Assembly (NCBI GenBank): GCA_029776995.1
Contig: JAKOTZ010000172.1
Location: forward strand, 1 to 62,390
Origin: Candidatus Hydrogenedentota bacterium
GTDB lineage: Bacteria; Hydrogenedentota; Hydrogenedentia; Hydrogenedentales; CAITNO01
Length of the DNA stretch: 62,390 nucleotides
Reading direction: 5' to 3'
The notes below the pieces were generated by a model that had not been told where the DNA came from, did no database searches, and saw nothing but the letters and a program-made list of their open reading frames with translations. This document shows positions 2,089 to 62,390 of the stretch, piece after piece. Position 1 is the first letter of the stretch. Each line of letters begins with the position of its first letter. The translations under genes were made by a program, and so were the position numbers.

Positions 2089-5000
2089 TCAGCTCAGGAT
2101 GCAGCGGATGTCATAGGTGCGGATACGGGAACGATGGTGGTGGATCTCGATTTCGAACCCGACCTCCCGGATCGTCTCCAGGTCGTTGGAGAACCGCTGG
2201 GCGAACTGCTGGACGGAGTTCATGTTGAAGGACAGGCCGAAATCCTTGGCCAGCCGCTTGAGGGCGATGAAGAGGTCGCGTGCCAGGACGCCCTCGATGG
2301 TGTTCTCGTCCCGGAAGTCGAGCTGGTAGCGCTCGAGGAACGCGGCCTTGTTGGTCTTGGTCACGTTGAGCGCCGTGCTCTCGTGGTCGGCCTCCAGGGC
2401 GTGGCGGTAGGCTTTGAAGAGCGCGGCCAGGGCCGTGGCGATGGGGTTGGATTCCCGCGCGGTCTCCATGCTGACGCTGTTGAGCGAGGCGATCCGGTCG
2501 AGGAACTGCGGGTGGAGCTCCTCGAGCGCCCGGTCGATCTCTTCCTGCGGCTCGCCGGCCAGCATCATGAGGTACATCAGGCTGAGATAGTCGTTGCAGC
2601 GCCGCTTGTTGTGGTTTCCCAGGGTCCGGTGGAGCAGGCGCATCACCTTCTCCTGCGCCCCGTCCCGCAGCATGGCCAGCACGTGGCTGGTGCGTTTCAT
2701 CAGGGCGGAGATGATCAGGTCGCGATGCTCGCGGATGGCGGCCAGCACCTTCGCCTCGAGGAAGCAGTCGCTGGCCTGCTCGTCCATGTCGAAGCGGATG
2801 ATGAAGGAGCGGGAGAGGATCTCCGCCAGCTCGCCGCCCAGGGGCTCGATGCCGGTGGTGTTGAGCAGGCACTTGGTGCGCTCGATGACGGTCTCGGTGT
2901 CGGTGCCGCTCTTGCGCTTCTCCTTGGCGATCCCCGTGATGCTGGTGAGGATAAAGGTGGTGAGGTCCTCGGTCATCTGCTTGACCTCGATGTTGTCGAG
3001 GACGATGAGCGGGTTCTGGGAGCCGTCGGTGTAGTTGGCCGCGTCGGTGCTCTTCTTCTGCTGGGGCTCGCCGTAGAGCAGCGCGGAGATGAGCTTGCTG
3101 GCCGTGGTCTTGCCCGAGCCGGCGGGCCCTTCGAAGCGCGTCATCGGCCGCGTCCCCGCGAAGTCGATGAGCAGGAAGCAGGACAGCCACGAGAGGATCA
3201 GGGACCGGTCGCCCGGGGCGCAGGTCATGTTGTCCAGGATCAGCTCCACCAGGAGGCGGTCGGCCTCCTCGGGGTCCGCGTCGCCCAGGAAACGGATCGG
3301 GGCCATCTTGCGCGAGCCGTCCAGGATCACCCCGTCGGCGTTCCCTCCGTTCTTGAGGATGTCGATCCCGTCCGGCGTGATCCTGGCGATCTCGTGGTCG
3401 GCGTTGTTGAGGTTGAAGTAGACGGTGTAGTTCGCCACGTCCGTGTGAAGCCAGGAGAAGTGGTCCCGCACCTGCCCGCGCTCCACCGCGAGGTTGGCCA
3501 GCACCTCGTAGAAGGTCCGTCCGCCGCCGGTCGTCTGCACCAAGCCGGTGTGCTTGTAGATGGTCGACGAATAGAGCCTCTTGCGGCCGCGGTCCGTGCT
3601 GTCCATCCAGAAGATGGCGTCCTCGAAGAACATGAACGGCTCGCCCTGGGGCGTGCGGAAGAAGCGCGCGCCGTTGGCGGCGAACCATTCGAAGGCGGCC
3701 TCGGCCACGCGGGTGTAATCCGGCGCCCCGGTCTCCTCCTCGGTCTCGATCATCACCTGCTCGATCCGGGCGCGGCAGGAGCCGGGCGGCGCGCCGGTGC
3801 GGCGTTTCTCGCGTTTCTTCTCCTGCCTGGCCTGCGAGCGCCGCTCCTTCTGGACGGCCCGCACCTGCTCGCGCAGCGTGGCCAGCGTGAGACTGGACTT
3901 GCCGTACCGCTCCTGGATGAGCTTCAGGTGGCGGTTCTGCTCCAGGGGCGCGAGCCGCGCCACTTCCTGCAGGACCGGTTCCAGCCGCCGGTTGCGTTCA
4001 TCCTCAGGGACGTCGGTCGGCAGGCGGGAGATGCTGAACTCGAGCGGGGTCTGGGCCTCCCGGAGCAGCTCCTCGAAGTCCTCCTTCGTGCGGCCGGAAG
4101 CGAAGAAGTCGTTGACGTCGATCTTGGCGGCGGCCAGGAGCTTCCCGGCCTCCTCGATGTCCGCCTGCGGGCGGCCTTCGAGCCGCCTGGCGAGCTCGCG
4201 GGGGCCCACCGCCGCGTCGAGGCCGAAGCGTTCCCTCAAGTTCCGCCGTGCCTCCTCCTGCCGCTGGTCCAGCGGGAGGACGACGAGCCTCACCTGGATC
4301 TTGTGCTCGGCGAGGACGCTCGCGGTCTTCAGGGCCCCGTTGAGCCCGGCCTGGGAGACCTCGTTGTCCTGGCAGATGTAGACCGTCTTCACGCCGCGGA
4401 GCTTGGGCAGCAGCCGCTCCCAGTCGGAGGCGCGGATCCTCACCGTGACCGGGGAGACCGCCGGGAACCCGTGCTCCATCAGCGAGATGCAGTCGGTCAC
4501 CCCCTCGGTGATGATGACCCGCTCGGGGCGGGCCAGCAGGCAGTCCTCGTTGAAGAGGTAGCCGTTGTTGATGCAGTGGGCGATGTGCTTGCGCGAGTGG
4601 TCGTCGTGGACCGGAAGCTTCTTGTACTTTCCCTGCTCCCAGGGCCGGTCCGGCGTCCAGGGCGTCTTCCGCCCGATCATGAAGACCACGCGGCCGCGGC
4701 TCCAGTAGGGGAAGACGATCCGTCCCTCGAAGAACGGTTCGAGGCCGTCCTGGCTCGTCGGCCGGAAGGCCCCGGTCGCGGCGAGCTCACACAGGCTGAA
4801 GCCCTCTTCCCACCTGGTCAGCGCCGTGATCACGCCGGGGTGTTCCCGGCCGTCGTCGTCTTTGCAGGGACCGTTGTCGGCGTAGCCTATGCTCAGGGCG
4901 TCGATGGTCTCGTCGGAGATCCGGTACCGGGTGCGCAGCCAGTCCAGGACCTCCGGCGAATCCCTGAGGCGGCGGTGGTAGAAGGAGGCCAGGGCCGTCA

Positions 5001-39939: not shown

Positions 39940-42900
39940 ATGCGTAAACATTGCCGGTGGTCGACGTATCTGTTTTTGGCGGTTTCAGCCTCGCTGCTCC
40001 TGCTGACCCCGAACGCTTTCGCCGTAAAGCGGATCCTGCTGGTGGGCGACAGCTGGGCGCAGTGGCCCTGGGTAATGGGTTCCTACCAGTCGGTACTCAA
40101 TTATAATTACGGACCGGGCACCTACGAGGTAGAGGGCACGTATACGGCCATCGGCGGCTCTACGGCAGATGGCTGGGCCAATAATGCAGTCCCCCCAGAG
40201 GACACGTTTCCTTCGCCGCCGGGGTATACCAACATGCCCCTGCTGGACCGGGTCAACTGGTCGCTGGCCCACTGGCCCACGATTGACATCATCTGCCTGT
40301 CCATTACCGGCAACGACATGTGGTCATGGCGGACCAACTGGACACCGGCCCAAACGGAAGCCCTGTATGACACCATCCAGGAAGACTTAGAAACCCTGGT
40401 GAACTGGTTCCGAACCAACCATCCCACCAAGAAAATTCTGCATATCGGATACGATTACCTGAATATCACGGAAACATGCACCTACGGCATGCAGGAATTT
40501 TCATGGAACTCCGTGTATTTTGCGGCCGGCCTGGGATTCACCGTGGGGGACATCTGGCAGAACAAGGCCAACAACCAGGTGATCAACCAGTTCTTCGTGG
40601 GGATGGGAGAACGCAACAAAAACGTCGCGCTGGCCACAACCCGGTGGGATTTCCTGAACAACTTCGGCGCGAACCACTACGCCAATGGCTACACGAACTC
40701 CCTGGGCACCATTTTCAATCCGGGCACGACGCCGTTTCCGGGATATTATCCGAACTACACGCCGATGGCCGGCGGGGATATTTCCTACGGCACCGCCCCC
40801 ATGCAGATGAATAAACCGGAGTCGGACAAGACCTACCGGGATCCGATTCACCTGAACGACCAGGGCTACAAAACGCTGTTTAATAATGCCGTAATGCAAT
40901 TCCTGAACGGATGGCTGACCGATTCCTCCGCGCCGTCCGTTGCTTCGATCAACCGGCTTGATCCGTCGCCCACTGAAGCCAACGAAGTCCGCTTTACCGT
41001 AACCTTCAATGAAGCCGTCCGGGGCGTGGACGCGAGCGATTTTGTGTTGACGGGCAGTTCGGCGTCCGGCGCATCGATAACGGCAGTGGAAGGGTCCGAA
41101 GACACCGCTACGCGGACGGTCCGGGTAAACACCGCAAGCGCGCCCAACGGCACCCTGGGACTGAACCTGGTTGACGACGGTTCCGTGTACGACAAAAACT
41201 GGAACCAGCTGGGCGGCGAAGGAACCGGCAACGGCAGTTTCACCGGAGGCCAAACCTATATTATTGATCGCATGGATCCGGAAGCCGTGATTACTCCTCA
41301 GGTACCTGAGCCCACGACGCTGACGTCGGTTACCTTCGACGTGGTGTTCAATAAAGACGTTACGGGCTTTACCGCGGACGACATTGTCGTTGCGGTCCAA
41401 AGCGGCCAGGGGACCGCGTGGGTAACCAATTTTGCCGGCAGCGGCGCCAGCTATTCCTTCTCGCTGCTGGTCAGCCGCACCCAGACCATCACCGTGTCCG
41501 TACAGATTCCCGCCGGCGCGGCCACGGACGCGTCCGGCAGAAGCTCGCTGGCGGCGGCTTACCAGGACGGCGCGGACAACGCCTATACCTTCGAATATCC
41601 ATCTGGCCCGGTTTCGGAGGGAGACCTCTACCTGAGCGACGGATCCCTGGGCGATCTGACCATAACCAGCGGTTCCGTAGTCATCAACACGGGAACGACG
41701 CCGCCTTTCCTGCAGTATGGATCCAACCCGGCCATTTACGGCCAGGTGCTCAGCACGGGATCTGGAAACGTGGCGAAATTCAACTTCCGGAACGTCACGG
41801 TGAACAGCGGTGTAACCGTAACGGTCAGCGGCAACCGGCCGCTGGTGCTGGCAGCGTCCGGTGACATGCGGTGGGATACCACGCTGGACGTATCCGGCGC
41901 CGTAGCCGGCCGCGCCGGAGGCGGTACGGGCGGAGCTGGCGGCTCCGCCGGCGCGGGCGGCAACGGTGGAGCGGGCGGATCAAGCGGTGGCGCCGGCGGT
42001 CTGGCTGCACCCGGCGGAGCGGGGGGCAACGCGTCAACCTGGCAGAACGGCGTACTGGGCAGAGGCGGAGACGGCAGCGGCCGGAACAGCGGCAGTGACG
42101 GCGCTTCGGGCGCGGCCGGCGCAGCCGGCACCCAGGGCGGCACCGGCGGCGCGGGAACGCTCGGGTTCGGTTCCCAGGGTACTGCTGGCGCTGGGGGCGC
42201 GCGGGGCAACGGCGGCAGCCCGCAGAGCACGGTTAACCGCGGATCGGGCGGATCCGCTTCCGGCGGCGGCGGCGGCGGCGGCGCGCCTCAATCCGTTCCC
42301 ACAAACGGTGATCCCGGCGGCAACGCCACAGCAGACGGCGTAAATGGGGGCAACGCCTCGGCGGGCGCCCAGGGCGGATCGGGTTCAAATGGGAGTCCCG
42401 GCTTACCGGCTAATTTCATGGCCGCGGCAAATACCTTAAGCCTGGCGGCCGGGCACGGCGGCGGCGGCGGCGGTGGCGGCGGTGGTGGCGCCGGGGGCCA
42501 GGGCGGCGACCAGGGCGGCGGCGGATCCAGCGGCGCCGGCGGCGGCGGCGGCGGACTGGCGTACAACACGTGGCTGGCTCAGTGCGGAGCTCCCGTAATA
42601 GACGGTGTCGGCGGCAATGGCGGCGCGGGCGGAGCTGGTGGCGCCGGCGGAAACGGCGGAAACGGCGGCGGCGCGGCCGTGCTGGCCGCTCGGGGTATCC
42701 TCCGCTTTGGCGGAACGGTGAACATCTCCGCGTCGGCTCCCGGCAGCGGTTCCGCCGGAAGCGCCGGACAGGCCGGATCGGGCGGTGTGGACCCCGGCAA
42801 CAACTGGCAGAATGGATCAGGCGGGGCCGGCGGGGGACAGGGGTTATACTGGACCCTGTTTTACGGCTGTTGGCCTCTAAATAATTACGGCGGGGCCGGC

Positions 42901-49286: not shown

Positions 49287-50084
49287 TCATCTGTTCTGCT
49301 CCTGGGGAGCGGCAGACGGGGGACTGTTCTGGGTACGGCCGCGGCCGCGAAATCCAGGCGCCGGACCGGCCGGGCGGTTGTCACACCAGCCGTCGCCATC
49401 TCCGTCTGTAAAATTGTCACAGCGGCCGTCCTGGTCTGCATCCGCGAAACCCGGACAGCCCCGCGGACAACCCCACGCTCCGCGACCCATGCCCGTGCCA
49501 TGCCAGGCAGGCGGAGGACCGTTCGGGGTACGACCGCGGCCGCGGAATCCAGGCGCTGGACCGGCCGGGCAGTTGTCACACCAGCCATCCCCATTCCCGT
49601 CTGTAAAATTGTCACAGCGGCCGTCCTGGTCTGCGTCCGCGAATCCCGGACAGCCCCGCGGACAACCCCACGCTCCGCGACCCATGCCCGTGCCGTGCCA
49701 GGCAGGCGGAGGACCGTTCGGGGTACGACCGCGGCTGCGGAATCCAGGCGCCGGACCGGCCGGGCGGTTGTCACACCAGCCGTCGCCATCACCGTCCGTA
49801 AAATTGTCACAGCGGCCGTCCTGGTCTGCGTCCGCAAATCCCGGGCAACCCGGAGGACAGCCCCGCGCCCCGCGGCCCATGCCCGCGCCGCGCCAGCCGG
49901 GCGGAGGCGGAAGCGGTTGATCCGACGGCGGTGCAACAGCCGAATCGGGAGGGTTGGCTCCGGTTGCCTGTTCCGGTGGTGGCAGCGGGGGAGAATTCTG
50001 AGCCCACGCGGTCTGGGTAACGCCTGCCAGCAGAAGCAGGCCGACCGCAGTTCCGATCCAAAATCCTGTTTTCGTGTTCTTCAT
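49287..50084 (-). CDS. Secreted protein with three 65-residue Cys/Asp-rich repeats
   Basis: This is 265 residues from the ATG at 50084, with a signal peptide (GFWIGTAVGLLLLAGVTQTA ending at AWA). After a Pro-rich linker come three near-identical 65-residue units. Each holds RGCPPGCPGFADADQDGRCD or a close variant, then DGDGDGWCDN and a Gly/Pro/Arg-rich spacer with WHGTGMGRGAWGC. The Asp-x-Asp-x-Asp-Gly loops resemble calcium-binding thrombospondin type 3 or dockerin loops, with cysteines between them. It is likely periplasmic or extracellular. Function is unknown; calcium- or metal-dependent folding is inferred. Confidence 0.75.
   Translation of the reverse strand: MKNTKTGFWIGTAVGLLLLAGVTQTAWAQNSPPLPPPEQATGANPPDSAVAPPSDQPLPPPPGWRGAGMGRGARGCPPGCPGFADADQDGRCDNFTDGDGDGWCDNRPAGPAPGFRSRGRTPNGPPPAWHGTGMGRGAWGCPRGCPGFADADQDGRCDNFTDGNGDGWCDNCPAGPAPGFRGRGRTPNGPPPAWHGTGMGRGAWGCPRGCPGFADADQDGRCDNFTDGDGDGWCDNRPAGPAPGFRGRGRTQNSPPSAAPQEQNR
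49331..49915 (-). repeat. Three tandem 195-base direct repeats
   Basis: Units begin at about 49331, 49526 and 49721, a constant 195-base (65-codon) spacing, and differ by only a few bases each. The high DNA identity points to recent duplication and possible copy-number variation. Confidence 0.9.
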
Positions 50085-50228
50085 GGTTGCGCTCCTTCTC
50101 ATTTTGGGCGCTGTAACGCGCGCCAATAACAGAAGGGCAATTGCCGTGCCGTTTTCAGTCAGCAGTTTTTCCTGATTTTATCGCTTTTTCGGACCGGTTC
50201 CGCGCAGATTTTGCGCGCCCCCCTGCAA

Positions 50229-55291: not shown

Positions 55292-55602
55292 GGCGAAAAG
55301 TATACCAGCCTGCCCGCCGCGGGCGGATGTTTCTTTCCGGCCACTGCGGCGCCAAAAAAAAAATTTCAGATTTTTTTCATTTTTCCGTTCAACGGAATTT
55401 TTGTCGGATATACTTTTCATGACCCTGGGCAAAAGGCCGGGAACCTGGGAGGTCCAAACCATGGCGCAACCGTCCGCGCGGTCCCCGTACCGCAAAAGGT
55501 CCTGTCCCTTCGAAACGTCGCGTGTCCGCGGTTGTTTTCCGCCGCTTCAGACCCATAGACTGATGCCTGTTCCATATGCCAACTGCGATAAGGAGCCATG
55601 CC
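55292..55602. promoter_or_regulatory. Divergent intergenic region before the cas operon
   Basis: The 311 bases hold no convincing gene. They include A- and T-rich runs (55354-55404), a CCGTTCAACGG palindrome (55385-55395) and a TATACT hexamer (55409-55414) that could be a plus-strand -10, though the -35 spacing is poor. It should contain promoters for the glycan operon and the cas operon. No CRISPR repeat and no cas3 fragment are seen. Confidence 0.5.
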
Positions 55603-57639
55603 ATGTCTGAACACCACTCATTCAACCTGCTGCGCGACCCGTGGATCCCCGTGCTGTACAAAGACACGGGAACCAGCAAGCGGGTCAGTGTCACGGAGGC
55701 TTTCAGAGACGCCGACAAGATCTGGCGGATTGACACGGGCAATCCGCTGGACACCCTGGCCGGAACCCGGTTCCTGCTGGCCCTCCTGTACTGGTGCGAA
55801 CCTGACCCGCCCGATTCGGTCGATCCCGAGTCCCTGAACAAACCGTTTCCGGAAACGATCCTTGAAAAACTGAATCAAAACGCGCCGCTTTTTGAGCTGT
55901 TTGGAGACAAACGCCGGTTTTACCAGGACCCCGGCGTGCGCAACGCCAAAAACAGGCATCCGGTAACCAACCTGATCCATGAAATCCCTTCGGGCCGTAA
56001 TTACCCCCATTTTGTTCACGTCACGGACGAGGATTGCGTGCTGTCCCCCGCGGCCTGCGCGCTGGGTTTGATTCGCCTGCCGGTTTTCACCACCGTAGGC
56101 GGCCAGGGAAAAAGCTATGGCATCAACCAGACGCCTCCCGTTTACGTGTTGCCGGAGGCGGAAACGCTGGCCGGGACCCTGCGTTTGTCCTGGGTGGCAT
56201 TGCGCGGCCGGAAGCCGGGCATTCCCGCGTGGGAAGATTCGCTGCAGCCCCTCGAGGGGGAAATCCCGGCGCTCACGGGACTGACCTGGCTTCCCAGGAG
56301 GGTCTGGTTTCACGAAACTGTTTTTGAACCGTCGCGGCAATGCGCGTTCCTCGGGGAATCGGTGTCGCTTGGGGTCAGCGAAACCGCGTATGAAGGCCGA
56401 GCCAAGGAGGACGTGAAAAAAGACGGATACCACTGGCGGGACCCGCACGTGCTGAGCGATTGGAATCGGGAAACCACGGAGGCGAAAAAGGACGCGGTGA
56501 AACTGCCGCATCTGAAGCTCACGGACCTGTCCAAATATCCGGATGCCACGGCCCGGCAGTGGCTGGAAGGCATAACGGCTTTGCGGAAGGCGGTCCAGTC
56601 CGTACCGTGCTGGCGCGGCCATGCCGACTGGCTGATCGTGGATTTCGTCACGGACCAGGCCAAGTTCCTGGATGCCCTGGCCTTCCGGGTAAGGCTGGAC
56701 AACACCGGCGATGGTACGGAGGAGAAAGAGCAAGTCATTGAAAGCTGGCAGAAAAACCGCGGCCAGGTACTGTCGGGGCTGCAGCGGACCATTATCGCGG
56801 CGCAGGCCCGTACGGACGAAGAACGGAAAAAACGGACCGGCGGGCTAAAAAAATCCAACCTGGCGAAATTTCTCCACGTGCAGACGGCATACCCGACGGA
56901 GACCGGCCGGATGCCGGAGTGGGAAGCGCTGCTGGACACCGCCCCGCAGGCGCTTTACCGCAACATGCAGCGCGCGCTGGCGCCCGTGTTCTTTGCTGAT
57001 ATCTCCGTGCGGGACATCATCGGCCAGAACCGGCTGGGGCAAATCCCTTTCATCATCGACCGCAACAGGTATGACCAGCCGTCCGGCAAAGGGGTTAAGG
57101 AATTTACCCGCCGGCTGGCTGAACAGAAAGAGGGCATCCTGTCGCTGCTCCGCGGCAAATCCGGCGCGGAGATCGACCGCGATCCCGTCGCCTTTGACCT
57201 GTTCACCGGGCTGTGGTGGCCAATCCGGCAGGCCCATAAAGACGCGCCGCGCCGGCATATCGCCTGGCTCGCGTGCAAGCTGTACGGCTGGGTTCCGCTG
57301 GAGGACAGCACGGGCTGCCACCTTCCCGACCAGCTGGCCCGCGCCGCCAGGAGGGCGGGATCGGAACAGGCCAGGGATTCCATCATCGACCGGTTCGACC
57401 TGCTGCTGAACACGCCCCAGGAGCGGCTGGAGCCGGAGCTGCAGTGGGCGCTTGCGGTGGTGCGGGACTATCTTGACCGTCCCGCGCTGGACTGGGGAAA
57501 ACTCATCGACCACCTGTCCGTCTGGAAACGCCAGTCCCTGCGGCGTTACTGGGCGCTGCGGTTCGCGGAAACGCTGTATCCCAAAAAAGAAGCTGCGGGC
57601 TCTTCCGAAACCCCATCCATTCAGGAAACCGCCGGGTGA
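55603..57639 (+). CDS. cse1: Fused Cse1-Cse2 (Cas8e-Cas11) Cascade subunits
   Basis: This is 678 residues from the ATG at 55603, chosen because AAGGAG lies seven bases upstream. E. coli Cse1 is about 500 residues. Residues 1-470 look like Cse1: the N-terminus FNLLRDPWIPV is its hallmark, and a helical bundle covers about 380-470. Residues about 495-665 look like the 160-residue small subunit Cse2: LLRGKSGAEIDRDPVAFDLF near the start and LDWGKLIDHLSVWKRQSLRR near the end, then WALRFAETLY. No separate cse2 gene exists before cas7. Cse1 recognises the PAM; Cse2 stabilises the R-loop. It heads the cas operon. Confidence 0.85.
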   Translation: MSEHHSFNLLRDPWIPVLYKDTGTSKRVSVTEAFRDADKIWRIDTGNPLDTLAGTRFLLALLYWCEPDPPDSVDPESLNKPFPETILEKLNQNAPLFELFGDKRRFYQDPGVRNAKNRHPVTNLIHEIPSGRNYPHFVHVTDEDCVLSPAACALGLIRLPVFTTVGGQGKSYGINQTPPVYVLPEAETLAGTLRLSWVALRGRKPGIPAWEDSLQPLEGEIPALTGLTWLPRRVWFHETVFEPSRQCAFLGESVSLGVSETAYEGRAKEDVKKDGYHWRDPHVLSDWNRETTEAKKDAVKLPHLKLTDLSKYPDATARQWLEGITALRKAVQSVPCWRGHADWLIVDFVTDQAKFLDALAFRVRLDNTGDGTEEKEQVIESWQKNRGQVLSGLQRTIIAAQARTDEERKKRTGGLKKSNLAKFLHVQTAYPTETGRMPEWEALLDTAPQALYRNMQRALAPVFFADISVRDIIGQNRLGQIPFIIDRNRYDQPSGKGVKEFTRRLAEQKEGILSLLRGKSGAEIDRDPVAFDLFTGLWWPIRQAHKDAPRRHIAWLACKLYGWVPLEDSTGCHLPDQLARAARRAGSEQARDSIIDRFDLLLNTPQERLEPELQWALAVVRDYLDRPALDWGKLIDHLSVWKRQSLRRYWALRFAETLYPKKEAAGSSETPSIQETAG

Positions 57640-57683: not shown

Positions 57684-58874
57684 ATGCTCATTCAGATCCA
57701 CATGCTGCAAAACCATGCCCCGTCCAACCTGAACCGGGACGACCTCGGCGCGCCCAAGACCTGTTACTTCGGCGGCGTGCTGCGCTCCCGCATCTCCAGC
57801 CAGTGCCTGAAGCGCGCCGTCCGCATGAGCGACGAGTTCAGCGCGCTTCTGGGCGGGATCCGCACCCGGCGGCTCGGCCAGCTGCTCCGCGAGGAGCTGG
57901 AGAAGCTCGGGAAGAAAAATGCGGACATCACCAAGGTGCTCAACGAATGCGGGCTGGAGCAGAAAGCCAAAAAAGGCAAGGGTGACGAGGAAGCGGACGG
58001 CGCGGAAGGCCGGGAAGAGGGCAAGATGCTGGTCTACACCACCCGCAAGGCAATCCGCGAGATGGCAAAAATCCTTGCGGAAAGCGGCGATGCCAAGGAG
58101 ATGGCACGCAAAGTGGCCGAGATCATCAGCAGCCATACGGACGTGCCCGACATGGCCCTGTTCGGGCGCATGCTCGAGGCGAAAGCCGATTCCGACGCCT
58201 GGAAAAACCTGAACAACACGGTGGAAGCCGCCCTGCAGTCCGGGCATGCCCTGTCCACCCATACCGCTCGCAAGGAGATCGACTACTACGTCGCTGCCGA
58301 TGACGTGCCGGGCGCCGAGGACCGCGGCGCGGGGTACGTGGATGAAGCCCTGTTCGCCTCCGCCTGCTACTACAAGTATTTCTCCATCTCCTGGGAGCAG
58401 CTGCTGAAAAACCTCAGGAACAACCGCGAACTGGCGGCCCATACTGTCGGGGCGTTCCTGCGGGCCGCGGCGCTGGTGAACCCCACCGGAAAGCAGAACA
58501 GCTTTGCCGCCCACAATCCTCCGCTGGGCATCCTGGTCGAACTCCGGAAATACCCGATCAATTACGCGAACGCTTTCGTGCAGCCCGTGGACGTAGAGGA
58601 CCGGGCGGACCTGGTCGCCGAATCTGTTGCCCGGCTGGCGCGCCACATTGAAGACCTTGACACCGGATACGGCAGGCCGGACAGGCGGTTCTGGTTCTCG
58701 CCGAACCTCCGCTACCCCCTCGCCTACAACGGGACGCCTATCGTGCCGGAGCAGGAGTCCTGCCGCAGCCTGGATGACCTGGTGAGCGCGCTGATTCCCG
58801 CCATTGACGGCGGCCTGACCTGGGAGCAGGTCCGCTCGGCGGTGGTGGAATACTCCGCGGCGCGGGAGGGCTGA
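57684..58874 (+). CDS. cas7e: Cas7e backbone subunit of Cascade
   Basis: This is 396 residues with AGGAGGATGATCC before the ATG. The N-terminus (MLIQIHMLQNHAPSNLNRDD, then LGAPKTCYFGGVLRSRISSQ) is diagnostic for Cse4/CasC. The thumb and RRM segments follow, and the late GRPDRRFWFSPNLRYP is typical. Several copies line the crRNA. A Lys/Glu-rich insertion (about residues 92-112) is slightly longer than in E. coli (363 residues). It ends three bases before cas5. Confidence 0.95.
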   Translation: MLIQIHMLQNHAPSNLNRDDLGAPKTCYFGGVLRSRISSQCLKRAVRMSDEFSALLGGIRTRRLGQLLREELEKLGKKNADITKVLNECGLEQKAKKGKGDEEADGAEGREEGKMLVYTTRKAIREMAKILAESGDAKEMARKVAEIISSHTDVPDMALFGRMLEAKADSDAWKNLNNTVEAALQSGHALSTHTARKEIDYYVAADDVPGAEDRGAGYVDEALFASACYYKYFSISWEQLLKNLRNNRELAAHTVGAFLRAAALVNPTGKQNSFAAHNPPLGILVELRKYPINYANAFVQPVDVEDRADLVAESVARLARHIEDLDTGYGRPDRRFWFSPNLRYPLAYNGTPIVPEQESCRSLDDLVSALIPAIDGGLTWEQVRSAVVEYSAAREG

Positions 58875-58877
58875 GCC

Positions 58878-60053
58878 ATGACGGCTTATAACACCCTGCT
58901 TCTCCGCCTGGAAGGGCCCTTCCAGGCGTGGGGGCTGCCCGAGGCCCGTTTCGCGGTCCGGCGGGTGGCCCCCTGCCCGACCAAATCCGGCGTGATCGGC
59001 CTGCTGTGCGCCGCCATGGGCATCGCCCGGCCTGAAGCGACGCCGGAGACGCTGAAGCCGCTGGCCGAACTGAAAATGGCCGTGCGTGTGGACCGCCCCG
59101 GCGTGCGGTGGCTGGACTACCACACGGTCGGCGCCGGCATGGACCGGCGGACTGCCGGCGGCGACATGCGCCGCAGCGAAACCATGCTGACCCTGCGGGA
59201 GTACCTGGGCGACGCGTCGTTTCTGGTGGCCCTCTGGGGTGAGCCCGAAACCATCCAAAAACTGTATGACGCGCTTCGGAATCCGGTCTGGCCGCTGTAC
59301 CTCGGCAGGAAATCCTGCGTCCCGTCGGTCCCGCTGCTGCTGGACCGGACCATTCCCGAATCAGCCGAAGCCGGAGACGGCAAAGGGCAGGTTCAGGTAA
59401 GTTCGCTGCGCGCCGCGGCCAATCCGTTGGAAGCCCTGGCGAAGGTGCCCTGGCAGCCGCGGTATTTCTTCGAGAAAAAGGCCCCCGAAGCGCTGGACGT
59501 GTACACCGACTGGCCCCTTCCGGGAAACGGCCGGGAAGAATATGTTGAACTGCAGGCCGCGCGCGACGTGCCGGTGCATTTTCTGCCGCCGGTTCCGGCG
59601 TATGAATCCCGCGTTGTGGCCCGGCTGAAGCTCCGCTGCGGCGCCGGAGAGGGCGAAATCCCGGTATGGGACAAACCGCTGTACAGCCTGCCCAAAGCGC
59701 CGGAACGTCCCCAGGCGGACTATACCAATACGGAATACCGCCGGATCCGGAAGGCGCGCCTGCGGCAGGACCATGGGCTGTGCGTTTTCTGCAAGGCGCC
59801 GGCTACCACGGTGCAGCACGTCACCTATGAGCACGCGGGGGGCGGTGAGCGGCTGGACGAGCTCCGCGCCCTGTGCCGGCTCTGCCACGACGCCTGCACC
59901 ATGATCGAGTACGGCCACAACATGGGCATGAACCGCATTGATCCGGAAGACCCGGACTGGCGCGAACTGATCATCCGGAAGCGCCAGGAGATCATCACAT
60001 TCAGGTCCCGTGAAACCCGTTCCCGCATGCTGGGCGAGAAGGTATCGGAATAA
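58878..60053 (+). CDS. cas5-HNH: Cas5e fused to a C-terminal HNH nuclease domain
   Basis: This is 391 residues against about 225 for E. coli Cas5e. Residues 1-270 are Cas5e: LLLRLEGPFQAWG, CPTKSGVIGLLCAAMGI, RWLDYHTVGAG and YLGRKSCVPS. After a linker, residues about 285-345 form a zinc-type HNH domain: Cys302-x-x-Cys305, VQHVTYEH with His314, and LRALCRLCHDAC with Cys333, Cys336 and His337. His314 is the expected general base, and the four cysteines would hold the structural zinc. The final 45 residues are helical and basic. Cas5 caps the crRNA 5' handle; the HNH probably cuts target DNA, since no Cas3 is encoded here. This matches the reported Cas5-HNH type I-E class. Confidence 0.9.
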   Translation: MTAYNTLLLRLEGPFQAWGLPEARFAVRRVAPCPTKSGVIGLLCAAMGIARPEATPETLKPLAELKMAVRVDRPGVRWLDYHTVGAGMDRRTAGGDMRRSETMLTLREYLGDASFLVALWGEPETIQKLYDALRNPVWPLYLGRKSCVPSVPLLLDRTIPESAEAGDGKGQVQVSSLRAAANPLEALAKVPWQPRYFFEKKAPEALDVYTDWPLPGNGREEYVELQAARDVPVHFLPPVPAYESRVVARLKLRCGAGEGEIPVWDKPLYSLPKAPERPQADYTNTEYRRIRKARLRQDHGLCVFCKAPATTVQHVTYEHAGGGERLDELRALCRLCHDACTMIEYGHNMGMNRIDPEDPDWRELIIRKRQEIITFRSRETRSRMLGEKVSE

Positions 60054-60063
60054 GGAGACAGCC

Positions 60064-60903
60064 ATGTATTTGTCCACGCTGCTTATCGATGTCGGCGATG
60101 ATCCGGACCGGATCCGCCCCGGGCGCAACTGGCTGCGCAACCGTTACCGGGTGCACCAGCGCCTGTGCATGGCCTTTCCGGCGCCGGAACGCAAAACCCG
60201 GGATCCCCATTTTGTCCGCCCCTACGATCCGGAAGACTTCGGCCGGCAGGTGCGCGTGCCCCGGTCCGAAGAACAGGGGTTCCTGTTCCGGATTGATCCC
60301 AGGCCGGGAGCCTGTCCGGTCATCCTGGTGCAGTCCGCCGTGGAGCCGGACTGGGAATACGCTTTCCACAACGCGAAGTACCTGCTGGCCGCCCCGCCGG
60401 AGGTACGGGAATGGAACCCGGCATTTCAGGCCGGACAGAAATTCCGCTTCCGGCTCCTGGCCAATGCCACCCGGAAAGTCGGGACCCTCACGGCGGCCCA
60501 GCGCAGGGCCGATCCCGGCCAGGTAATCCGGGAGCCGAAAGAAGATCCGGCCGGGCCCTGGCGGCGCGACCGGCGCTCCAAAAACGGCGCCCGCGTCCCG
60601 GTCCCGCGGGAACAGCTGCCCGGATGGCTGGCCCGGCGCGCCGGGGAAGCCGGTTTCAGGCTGGTCCCGGATCCGGAGGCCGTGGAGGTGCAGGTCGAGT
60701 ACGTATACGTAAACCGGAGCGGTTTTGACCCGGAAGACCAGGACGGGCCGGACCGGGGCGCCTTCATTCCCCAGATGTTCTGCGCCCGGTTTGAAGGCCT
60801 GCTTGAAGTCACGGAGCCGGACCGGTTTGCCATGGCGCTGGGCAGGGGCATCGGACCCGCGAAATCGTTTGGGTGCGGGCTGCTGTCCGTCACGGCTCCG
60901 TGA
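60064..60903 (+). CDS. cas6e: Cas6e crRNA-processing endoribonuclease
   Basis: This is 279 residues from the ATG at 60064 with AAGGAG upstream. The start YLSTLLID is typical of Cse3/CasE. The likely catalytic His is His31 in RYRVHQRLCMAFP. The C-terminal Gly-rich loop GRGIGPAKSFGCGLLSV is conserved. It cleaves the repeat hairpin to release crRNAs and stays bound in Cascade. The upstream in-frame extension overlaps cas5 and is rejected. It is somewhat longer than E. coli CasE (199 residues), with an insertion around residues 150-205. Confidence 0.93.
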   Translation: MYLSTLLIDVGDDPDRIRPGRNWLRNRYRVHQRLCMAFPAPERKTRDPHFVRPYDPEDFGRQVRVPRSEEQGFLFRIDPRPGACPVILVQSAVEPDWEYAFHNAKYLLAAPPEVREWNPAFQAGQKFRFRLLANATRKVGTLTAAQRRADPGQVIREPKEDPAGPWRRDRRSKNGARVPVPREQLPGWLARRAGEAGFRLVPDPEAVEVQVEYVYVNRSGFDPEDQDGPDRGAFIPQMFCARFEGLLEVTEPDRFAMALGRGIGPAKSFGCGLLSVTAP

Positions 60904-60933: not shown

Positions 60934-61938
60934 ATGGCGCCATCCGATGATTTACGGGCCCTGCCGCGTTTTGCCGATTCCTGGTCGTACGCCTACCTCG
61001 AACATGTGATTATCGAGCGGGACGAGCACGGCATCGTGCTGATCGACGGAAACGGGAAAACGCCGGTGCCCTGCGCGGGCATCAACCTGCTGCTGTTCGG
61101 GCCGGGCGTTAGCGTGACCCACGCCGCCATGAGCCTGCTGATCGAAAACGGTGTCCTCGTCGCATGGACCGGCGAGGACGCCGTCCGCTGTTACGCTTTC
61201 GGCCATTCCAAGGCCAGAAACGCCCGGAACCTGTACTACCAGGCCACCCTGTGGGCCAATCCCCAGACCCGATTCCAGGTGGCTGTCCAGCTGTATAACA
61301 TGCGTTTTCCCGATCCGGTGCCGCCCCATGTTTCCATGGCCCAGCTGCGCGCCATGGAAGGCAGGCGGGTTCGGCAGGTTTATGAGTCCTGGGCCGAGAA
61401 AACCGGGGTCCAGTGGGCCGGCCGCAACTATTCCGTGGAAAGCTGGAACCATGCCGACCCTGTAAACCGGGCCCTGTCCGTGGCGAACAGCTGCCTGTAC
61501 GGCCTGTGCCATGCCGCAATCCTCGCCGGAGGATTCTCGCCGGCCCTCGGATTCGTCCACCTCGGGAACATGCTTTCCTTTGTCTACGACGTGGCCGACC
61601 TGTACAAAACGGAGTTCTCCATCCCCATCGCTTTCCAGATCGGCGCCCAGAATCCGCCTGAACTGGAAAGGATCGTACGCATGACCTGCCGGCAGGCTTT
61701 TTACCAGTCCCGGCTCCTCGGCAGGGTCATTCCGGACATCCGCTCCGCCCTCGGCATGGACAGGAAAAACCCCATCGCCGAGGACAGCGCCGACGCGCCG
61801 CTGGTGCTCTGGGATCCCGAGCAGGGTGAATGCCCCTCCGCCCAGAATTACGATCCCGAACTTATGGCCCAGGGCGAACAGAAACCTCAGCCGCCGCCTC
61901 CACCCAACCCTGAACAGCCGACGGAGAACCCATCATGA
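60934..61938 (+). CDS. cas1: Cas1 integrase (type I-E)
   Basis: This is 334 residues. The metal-binding residues align with E. coli Cas1 E141, H208 and D221: Glu142 in AMEGRRVRQ, His209 in LGFVHLGNM and Asp222 in FVYDVADLYK. It integrates new spacers with Cas2. A Pro/Gln-rich tail (residues about 300-334) ends the protein. Its stop overlaps the cas2 start as ATGA. A presumably active adaptation module argues that the locus is not a decayed remnant. Confidence 0.96.
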   Translation: MAPSDDLRALPRFADSWSYAYLEHVIIERDEHGIVLIDGNGKTPVPCAGINLLLFGPGVSVTHAAMSLLIENGVLVAWTGEDAVRCYAFGHSKARNARNLYYQATLWANPQTRFQVAVQLYNMRFPDPVPPHVSMAQLRAMEGRRVRQVYESWAEKTGVQWAGRNYSVESWNHADPVNRALSVANSCLYGLCHAAILAGGFSPALGFVHLGNMLSFVYDVADLYKTEFSIPIAFQIGAQNPPELERIVRMTCRQAFYQSRLLGRVIPDIRSALGMDRKNPIAEDSADAPLVLWDPEQGECPSAQNYDPELMAQGEQKPQPPPPPNPEQPTENPS

Positions 61939-62222
61939 CGGTGATCATCCTCGTCTCAGCCACGCCGGCGCTCCGGGGCGAAGTCTCCCGATGGGCCATC
62001 GAACCCCATCCGGGTGTCTTCGTCGCGGTCCTCTCCGCCCTCGTCCGCGAAAAACTCTGGGAGCGCTGCTGCAAAAAAATCCGCGACGGCGGCGTCATCT
62101 TCATCTACACCGACGCCAATGAACAGGGGTACACCATCCGCACCTACGGAAACACAAAACGACAGTTCGTGGATCTCGACGGCTTGATCCTGCCGAAAAT
62201 GATCTCCGGAAAAGAGTCCTGA
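61935..62222 (+). CDS. cas2: Cas2 (type I-E)
   Basis: This is 95 residues, starting MTVIILVSATPALRGEVSRW, the usual Cas2e opening. It contains GVFVAVLSALVREKLWERC and FIYTDANEQGYTIRTYG. It forms the core dimer of the Cas1-Cas2 integration complex and has the length typical of Cas2e. The leader and array start 50 bases downstream. Confidence 0.96.
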   Translation: MTVIILVSATPALRGEVSRWAIEPHPGVFVAVLSALVREKLWERCCKKIRDGGVIFIYTDANEQGYTIRTYGNTKRQFVDLDGLILPKMISGKES

Positions 62223-62271: not shown

Positions 62272-62390
62272 CTTTTCCCCACGCACGTGGGGGTGAACCG
62301 TTGCGCGCGTCGACGCAGAGCGCCATGACGTTCTTTTCCCCACGCACGTGGGGGTGACCCGTCTGGCCCGCATCTGCGTAATGGGATCCG
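62272..62390 (+). CRISPR. Type I-E CRISPR array (start only; runs off right edge)
   Basis: Two 29-base repeats lie at 62272-62300 and 62333-62361, separated by one 32-base spacer (62301-62332), with a partial second spacer to the edge. The period of 61 is standard for type I-E. The repeat CTTTTCCCC...GGGGGTGAACCG contains CCCCACG/CGTGGGG, a Cas6e-type hairpin, and ends like E. coli repeats. The second repeat has GTGACCCG for GTGAACCG, one substitution. Confidence 0.97.

Follow-up and report, generated by a model that had tools for sequence, protein, structure and literature searches.

Can one polypeptide supply both the large (Cse1) and the small (Cse2) subunit of a Cascade complex, and if it does, what becomes of the number of small subunits in that complex? 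The question is raised by the first cas gene of a CRISPR-Cas locus in the stretch of DNA analysed here (the window), which is one entire contig of 62,390 bases from a 3.4 Mb, 97%-complete Candidatus Hydrogenedentota genome; the closest relative within its genus is likewise a Candidatus Hydrogenedentota metagenome-assembled genome.

Organization of the locus

The cas genes lie at the right end of the window, all on the plus strand, in the order cse1-cse2, cas7e, cas5e-HNH, cas6e, cas1e, cas2e, and are followed by the start of a CRISPR array. The fused cse1-cse2 (cas8e-cas11e) gene occupies positions 55603-57639. It is followed by cas7e at 57684-58874 (Pfam CT1975, E 4.8e-91; PDB 8yb6_D, 2.8e-122), cas5e-HNH at 58878-60053 (TIGR01868, 6.2e-47; Pfam HNH, 6e-4; PDB 8yb6_A, 9e-100), cas6e at 60064-60903 (Pfam CRISPR_assoc, 1.9e-38), cas1e at 60934-61938 (PADLOC Cas1e, 4.5e-113) and cas2e at 61935-62222 (Pfam Cas2CT1978, 5.2e-30). 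The array start, called on the minus strand at 62272-62362, consists of two repeats, after which the contig ends.

The Cas5 protein has 391 aa and carries an HNH nuclease domain at its C-terminus, in which the motif C-x2-C, H, C-x2-C-H is intact. The 2025 classification names the Cas5-HNH system I-E2 (PMC12669027), and the accompanying gene set of Cas8e, Cas11e, Cas7e, Cas6e, Cas1e and Cas2e is complete in the window, with Cas11e present as a fused domain. There is no cas3 in the locus, and a search of the whole 97%-complete genome with the cas3-core profile TIGR01587 gave no match over the cut-off; a cas3 elsewhere in the genome was thus rejected, the search returning a sub-threshold helicase background only, and the Cas3 of canonical type I-E was not found. 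By its sequence the locus is a type I-E2 (Cas5-HNH) CRISPR-Cas system, a class that typically lacks Cas3, and crRNA-guided double-strand cleavage by the HNH domain is predicted from the motif.

Domain composition of the fused protein

The first gene is a single unbroken frame that runs from the ATG at 55603 to the stop codon ending at 57639 and encodes 678 aa. An alternative in-frame ATG at 55576 would yield 687 aa; the start at 55603 was preferred because of its better Shine-Dalgarno (SD) sequence (-7.4 kcal/mol vs -1.9 at 55576) and its agreement with the start of a relative. Pfam finds Cse1 at residues 8-301 (E 2.9e-38) and Cse2 at residues 516-654 (E 1.5e-7, over the curated cut-off), PADLOC calls Cas8e and Cas11e within the one protein, and phmmer against the PDB matches residues 2-373 to the Cse1 of a Cas5-HNH Cascade and residues 496-661 to the Cse2 chain of the same complex (8yb6_K, E 1.3e-25). 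An AlphaFold2 (AF2) model of the fusion, for which an alignment of 65 locus proteins served as input, has pLDDT above 90 across most of residues 490-660, and Foldseek aligns its Cse2 part with 8yb6_K at TM 0.93 and 1.6 A over 164 columns. The residues that are invariant among 30 Cse2 sequences are retained. In the 678-aa protein Cse1/Cas8e makes up residues 1 to about 480, and after it comes a complete Cse2/Cas11e domain, which shows both the all-helical Cse2 fold and the Cse2 profile match.

Four parts can be distinguished along the gene. The Cse1 N-terminal domain (residues 1-371, 55603-56715) contains the Pfam match and resembles 8yb6_J in Foldseek (TM 0.65, 3.6 A). It is followed by the Cse1 C-terminal helical region (residues 372-477, 56716-57033), which aligns with the C-termini of unfused Cse1 proteins and is modelled by AF2, at lower confidence, as helices 372-401, 405-417, 419-428, 437-446 and 469-477; the two traits of the Cse1/Cas8e family, an N-terminal domain and a C-terminal helical bundle, are thus both present. 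The joint (residues 478-495, 57034-57087) derives from the Cse1 tail and aligns with the basic tail of Cse1 that ends in KKGG. The Cse2/Cas11e domain takes up residues about 496-660 (about 57088-57582). The original prediction, which had read the gene as the large and small Cascade subunits in one chain and placed the Cse2 part at 57085-57597, is therefore borne out by profiles, PDB matches and the predicted fold, and its boundaries were essentially right. It had also remarked on the absence of a stand-alone cse2 ahead of cas7; none is present there, and the Cse2 profile gives this single match in the 97%-complete genome, so that a second cse2 elsewhere was rejected.

The joint and the relic Shine-Dalgarno sequence

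The unfused Cas5-HNH loci suggest how the two genes may have come together. In 46 of 50 such loci the two genes overlap, the start of cse2 with the stop of cse1, and in 38 of the 50 they do so by exactly four bases (ATGA, GTGA or TTGA). The SD sequence lies within the final cse1 codons, typically as AAGAAAGGAGG, which codes for KKGG, and its mean hybridisation energy is -10 kcal/mol over 57 candidate starts. At the corresponding place the window reads GGCAAAGGGGTTAAGGAATTT, with an SD-like AAAGGGG (57088-57094, plus strand, -8.0 kcal/mol) behind which the start codon is missing. The ancestor would thus have had cse1 and cse2 overlapping by a few bases, with the cse2 SD sequence inside the last cse1 codons, and a small frame change across the overlap may have joined the two genes, leaving behind the relic SD and a short, unconserved joint.

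Conservation in a second genome and alternative explanations

Another metagenome-assembled genome (MAG) of the same genus contains a collinear 678-aa fusion (locus L013, positions 2931-4964) that is 56% identical overall to that of the window (L007). Conservation is highest in the Cse2 part (66% identity, dN 0.30, dS 1.3, the latter near saturation), lower in the Cse1 N-terminal domain (58%) and the Cse1 C-terminal helices (47%), and lowest in the joint, where identity falls to 28% and dN roughly equals a dS that is near saturation. Since dN is well below dS in both domains, both are under purifying selection, and the joint is a free linker. These comparisons bear directly on the suspicion that the fused locus is an assembly artefact or a decaying system. 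It is MAG sequence, the contig ends inside the CRISPR array, and some other HNH loci of our census are broken (L020, L067), but the presence of the fusion at the same length in a second genome means that it is not an assembly error; together with the selection on both domains it largely refutes this explanation, which the full set of cas7, cas5-HNH, cas6, cas1 and cas2 with its intact HNH motif also contradicts, and we give it almost no weight. Post-translational cleavage of the fusion into Cse1 and Cse2, from which the complex would be assembled as in unfused systems, is very unlikely: a short, variable joint that is partly of low confidence in the AF2 model would suit a protease, but a joint this divergent between two orthologues holds no conserved cleavage motif, and we saw no positive sign of a protease.

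A further explanation is that the gene yields the full fusion plus free Cse2 from an internal start, as do the cas8 and cas10 genes of types I-B, I-C and I-D, for which internal translation of Cas11 is established (PMC11899642), and that each complex holds more than one Cse2. The original prediction had allowed for such extra Cse2 from a start near 57.05 kb, and the relic SD that survives in the window could be taken in its favor. In the stretch that begins 23 codons before the Cse2 domain start and ends 45 codons after it, a scan for ATG, GTG and TTG found one candidate in the window, GTG 57007, with an SD of -1.9 kcal/mol, far from the average of unfused cse2 starts. An internally translated Cas11 is marked by an SD and an in-frame start codon immediately ahead of its domain; no such pair was found here, and the idea is unsupported for this gene. 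L013 has an ATG 5 codons upstream of its Cse2 domain that lacks an SD (+0.8), its best candidate nearby being a GTG at -19 (-5.9), and neither genome's candidates are common to both. In the divergent fused relative L008 an in-frame ATG coincides with the start of the Cse2 domain and is preceded by a fair SD (-7.3 kcal/mol), so that L008 may differ from the window in internal translation. For the window we consider an internal start unlikely; non-SD initiation or proteolysis could release some free Cse2 from the gene.

Frequency of the fusion among Cas5-HNH loci

An alignment of the conserved HNH part, searched against 84,980 species genomes, yielded 63 Cas5-HNH loci, to which one from a viral-contig collection was added. 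Loci were sorted as fused or unfused with iterated Cse1 and Cse2 profiles, and after loci that were broken or cut by contig ends had been set aside, 56 distinct loci were counted, 50 with separate cse1 and cse2 and six with a fusion (6/56). The six are the window, L013, L008/L080 (one genome, two contigs), L072, L073 and L074. The Cse1-Cse2 fusion is real and rare; the original prediction had proposed that other Cas5-HNH loci be compared for it, and the fusion is shared by some of them but is a minority state.

To place this number we considered the 109 above-cut-off Cse2 places of four phyla (Pseudomonadota 36, Planctomycetota 16, Chloroflexota 38, Synergistota 19). The open frames at these places are at most 362 aa long, so none of the 109 is fused; the places are unsorted as to HNH and non-HNH loci, and at least three are HNH loci. 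Weak Cse2 matches in three longer Planctomycetota frames (534, 453 and 920 aa, in G844, G687 and G069) had been considered as fused canonical I-E genes; they have no cse1, cse2, cas5 or cas7 profile match and are chance matches. Comparing 6/56 HNH loci with 0/105, where 105 is the 109 less about four assumed HNH loci, gives a Fisher p of 0.0015 by locus and of 0.11 if the fusions are counted as two events, and the enrichment of the fusion among Cas5-HNH loci is for this reason suggestive only. The proposed tie between the fusion and the Cas5-HNH arrangement is supported in the window itself, where the fusion and the Cas5 with its C-terminal HNH stand in the same locus.

Origin of the fusions

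The fused loci differ in structure. L072 (3334-4995), L073 (3313-4962) and L074 (3221-4900), three Planctomycetota Cas5-HNH loci, contain a shorter fusion that lacks both the Cse1 C-terminal helical bundle and the last helix region of the Cse2 domain. The joints differ accordingly: the window keeps the Cse1 C-terminal helices, and in L072 about 30 low-confidence residues lead from the Cse1 N-terminal domain to Cse2 with no bundle between them. L008 (697-2589) and L080 (624-1844), both from genome G006, form a divergent Hydrogenedentota Cas5-HNH system with a fused Cse1-Cse2 and with Cas5-HNH on the second contig. In the HNH domain of G006 each metal-binding pair of cysteines is reduced to one (CVFT, SNLCH), and the histidines are kept.

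In the Cas7 tree the window and L013 are nested among unfused loci, with L031 as their sister (support 99/85), and given the starred branches the state must have changed at least twice. The fused state also requires two changes on the Cas5-HNH tree, where the AU test does not reject one origin (p 0.35); the fused loci in the trees include long branches. A single common origin of all fusions is allowed by the latter test, but the starred branches of the Cas7 tree and the differing joints argue against it.

Stoichiometry and a working model

The closest PDB relatives of the window's Cas7, Cas5, Cse1 and Cse2 are all found in the I-E2 Cas5-HNH Cascade of Candidatus Cloacimonetes (PDB 8yb6, 8yha, 8zlu, 8zm3, 8zp7, 9jxs), which has the same cas3-less gene set and a Cas5 with C-terminal HNH, and from which one Cse1 and one Cse2 are expected. 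Its Cse1 and Cse2 are separate chains, whereas in the window they form one chain with an 18-residue joint. The deposited Cas5-HNH Cascades contain 48 Cas7 chains in 8 entries, one Cse1 per entry and 6 Cse2 chains in the 6 entries that contain Cse2; the deposited T. fusca I-E Cascade has 18 Cas7 and 6 Cse2 chains in 3 entries. This amounts to one Cse2 per six Cas7 in the unfused Cas5-HNH Cascade and two in T. fusca I-E, the former figure being a count of deposited chains of an unfused homologue in which a loosely bound second copy could be unmodelled. A 1:1 ratio therefore precedes the fusion, and the fusion is not what frees space for the HNH domain. The altered stoichiometry that had been predicted holds relative to canonical I-E, with its two Cse2, but not relative to the Cas5-HNH Cascade; likewise, the structures are in line with the proposal that fewer small subunits make room for the HNH domain, but it is not the fusion that brings this about.

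According to a review of the structures, Cas5-HNH sits in the inner belly, between Cas6 and Cas11 (PMC11822464). For the Cloacimonetes system in human cells, Altae-Tran et al. 2023 report Cas11 to be dispensable for indels, with lower activity in its absence (PMC10910872). The fused chain most likely takes the positions of one Cse1 and one Cse2 in a single-Cse2 HNH-Cascade, where it would fix the 1:1 ratio already present in unfused relatives, and the HNH domain of Cas5, positioned against Cas6 and Cas11, would cut the target without Cas3. We consider it probable that the window holds an I-E2 locus in which Cse1 and Cse2 were joined by a frame change across their overlap and take part one to one in such a complex. 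A wider scheme, to which we give somewhat less than even chances, is that the HNH domain on Cas5 removed one Cse2, and that the resulting 1:1 ratio permits fusion, which would have arisen at least twice in the HNH-Cascade and not in canonical I-E; in L072-L074 the fused Cse2 would then replace the lost Cse1 C-terminal bundle to give a one-chain minor filament.

Comparison with known systems

The canonical I-E systems of E. coli and T. fusca have homologous Cse1, Cse2, Cas7, Cas5 and Cas6e, as the window does, and unlike the window they have a separate Cse1, two Cse2 per complex, a recruited Cas3 and no HNH. Types I-B, I-C and I-D resemble the window in that the large-subunit gene ends with a small-subunit domain, and they differ in the internal start that gives free Cas11 copies, for which the window has no good candidate.

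The term 'Cse1-Cse2 fusion' was not found in the literature searched. A passage of Altae-Tran et al. 2023 mentions that cas8 is additionally fused to cas11 in some Cas5-HNH/Cas8-HNH systems (PMC10910872); this is the same kind of fusion as in the window, so that the fusion has already been reported in kind. In the main text of the same paper (PMC10910872) we found the fused form neither described nor counted, and neither a structure nor a stoichiometry given for it. New here are the place and manner of joining, the lack of an internal start, the minority status of the fusion and its at least two changes on the Cas7 tree, as well as the fact that one group has lost its Cse1 bundle, and the agreement of the fusion with a one-Cse2 Cascade.

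The double-strand cuts made by HNH-Cascades are defined, and the complexes are candidates for use in editing; for such a tool a natural Cse1-Cse2 chain would mean fewer genes to deliver and a fixed subunit ratio. The locus also raises the question of whether the HNH domain stands in the place of the second Cse2, and whether this is why the fusion is tolerated here and unseen in canonical I-E.

Other unusual loci and sequences

Several loci met in the census are unusual in other ways. In L020 (5438-7333) a Rhs/YD-repeat-like stretch is joined in frame to the C-terminal half of a Cas5-HNH, with a transposase-like gene upstream; this 14-kb locus has no cas7, cse1 or cse2 and is either a wrecked locus or an assembly join. 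The Synergistaceae genome G072 has two Cse2 genes about 12 kb apart on contig C8 (near 593213 and 605209; L049), one within a Cas5-HNH locus and the other perhaps in a second I-E locus. On L076, the contig from the IMG/VR viral collection, there is a Cas5-HNH type I-E locus with its cse2 divided between two frames; it may be bacterial carry-over or phage-borne. Away from the cas genes, the window encodes on its minus strand (49287-50126) a secreted-looking protein of 279 aa that has three 195-bp repeats; these are nearly identical, and a Cys-rich, DxDxDGxCDN-like motif occurs in every one of them. At 42456-42554 the window contains a run of 33 imperfect CGG triplets.
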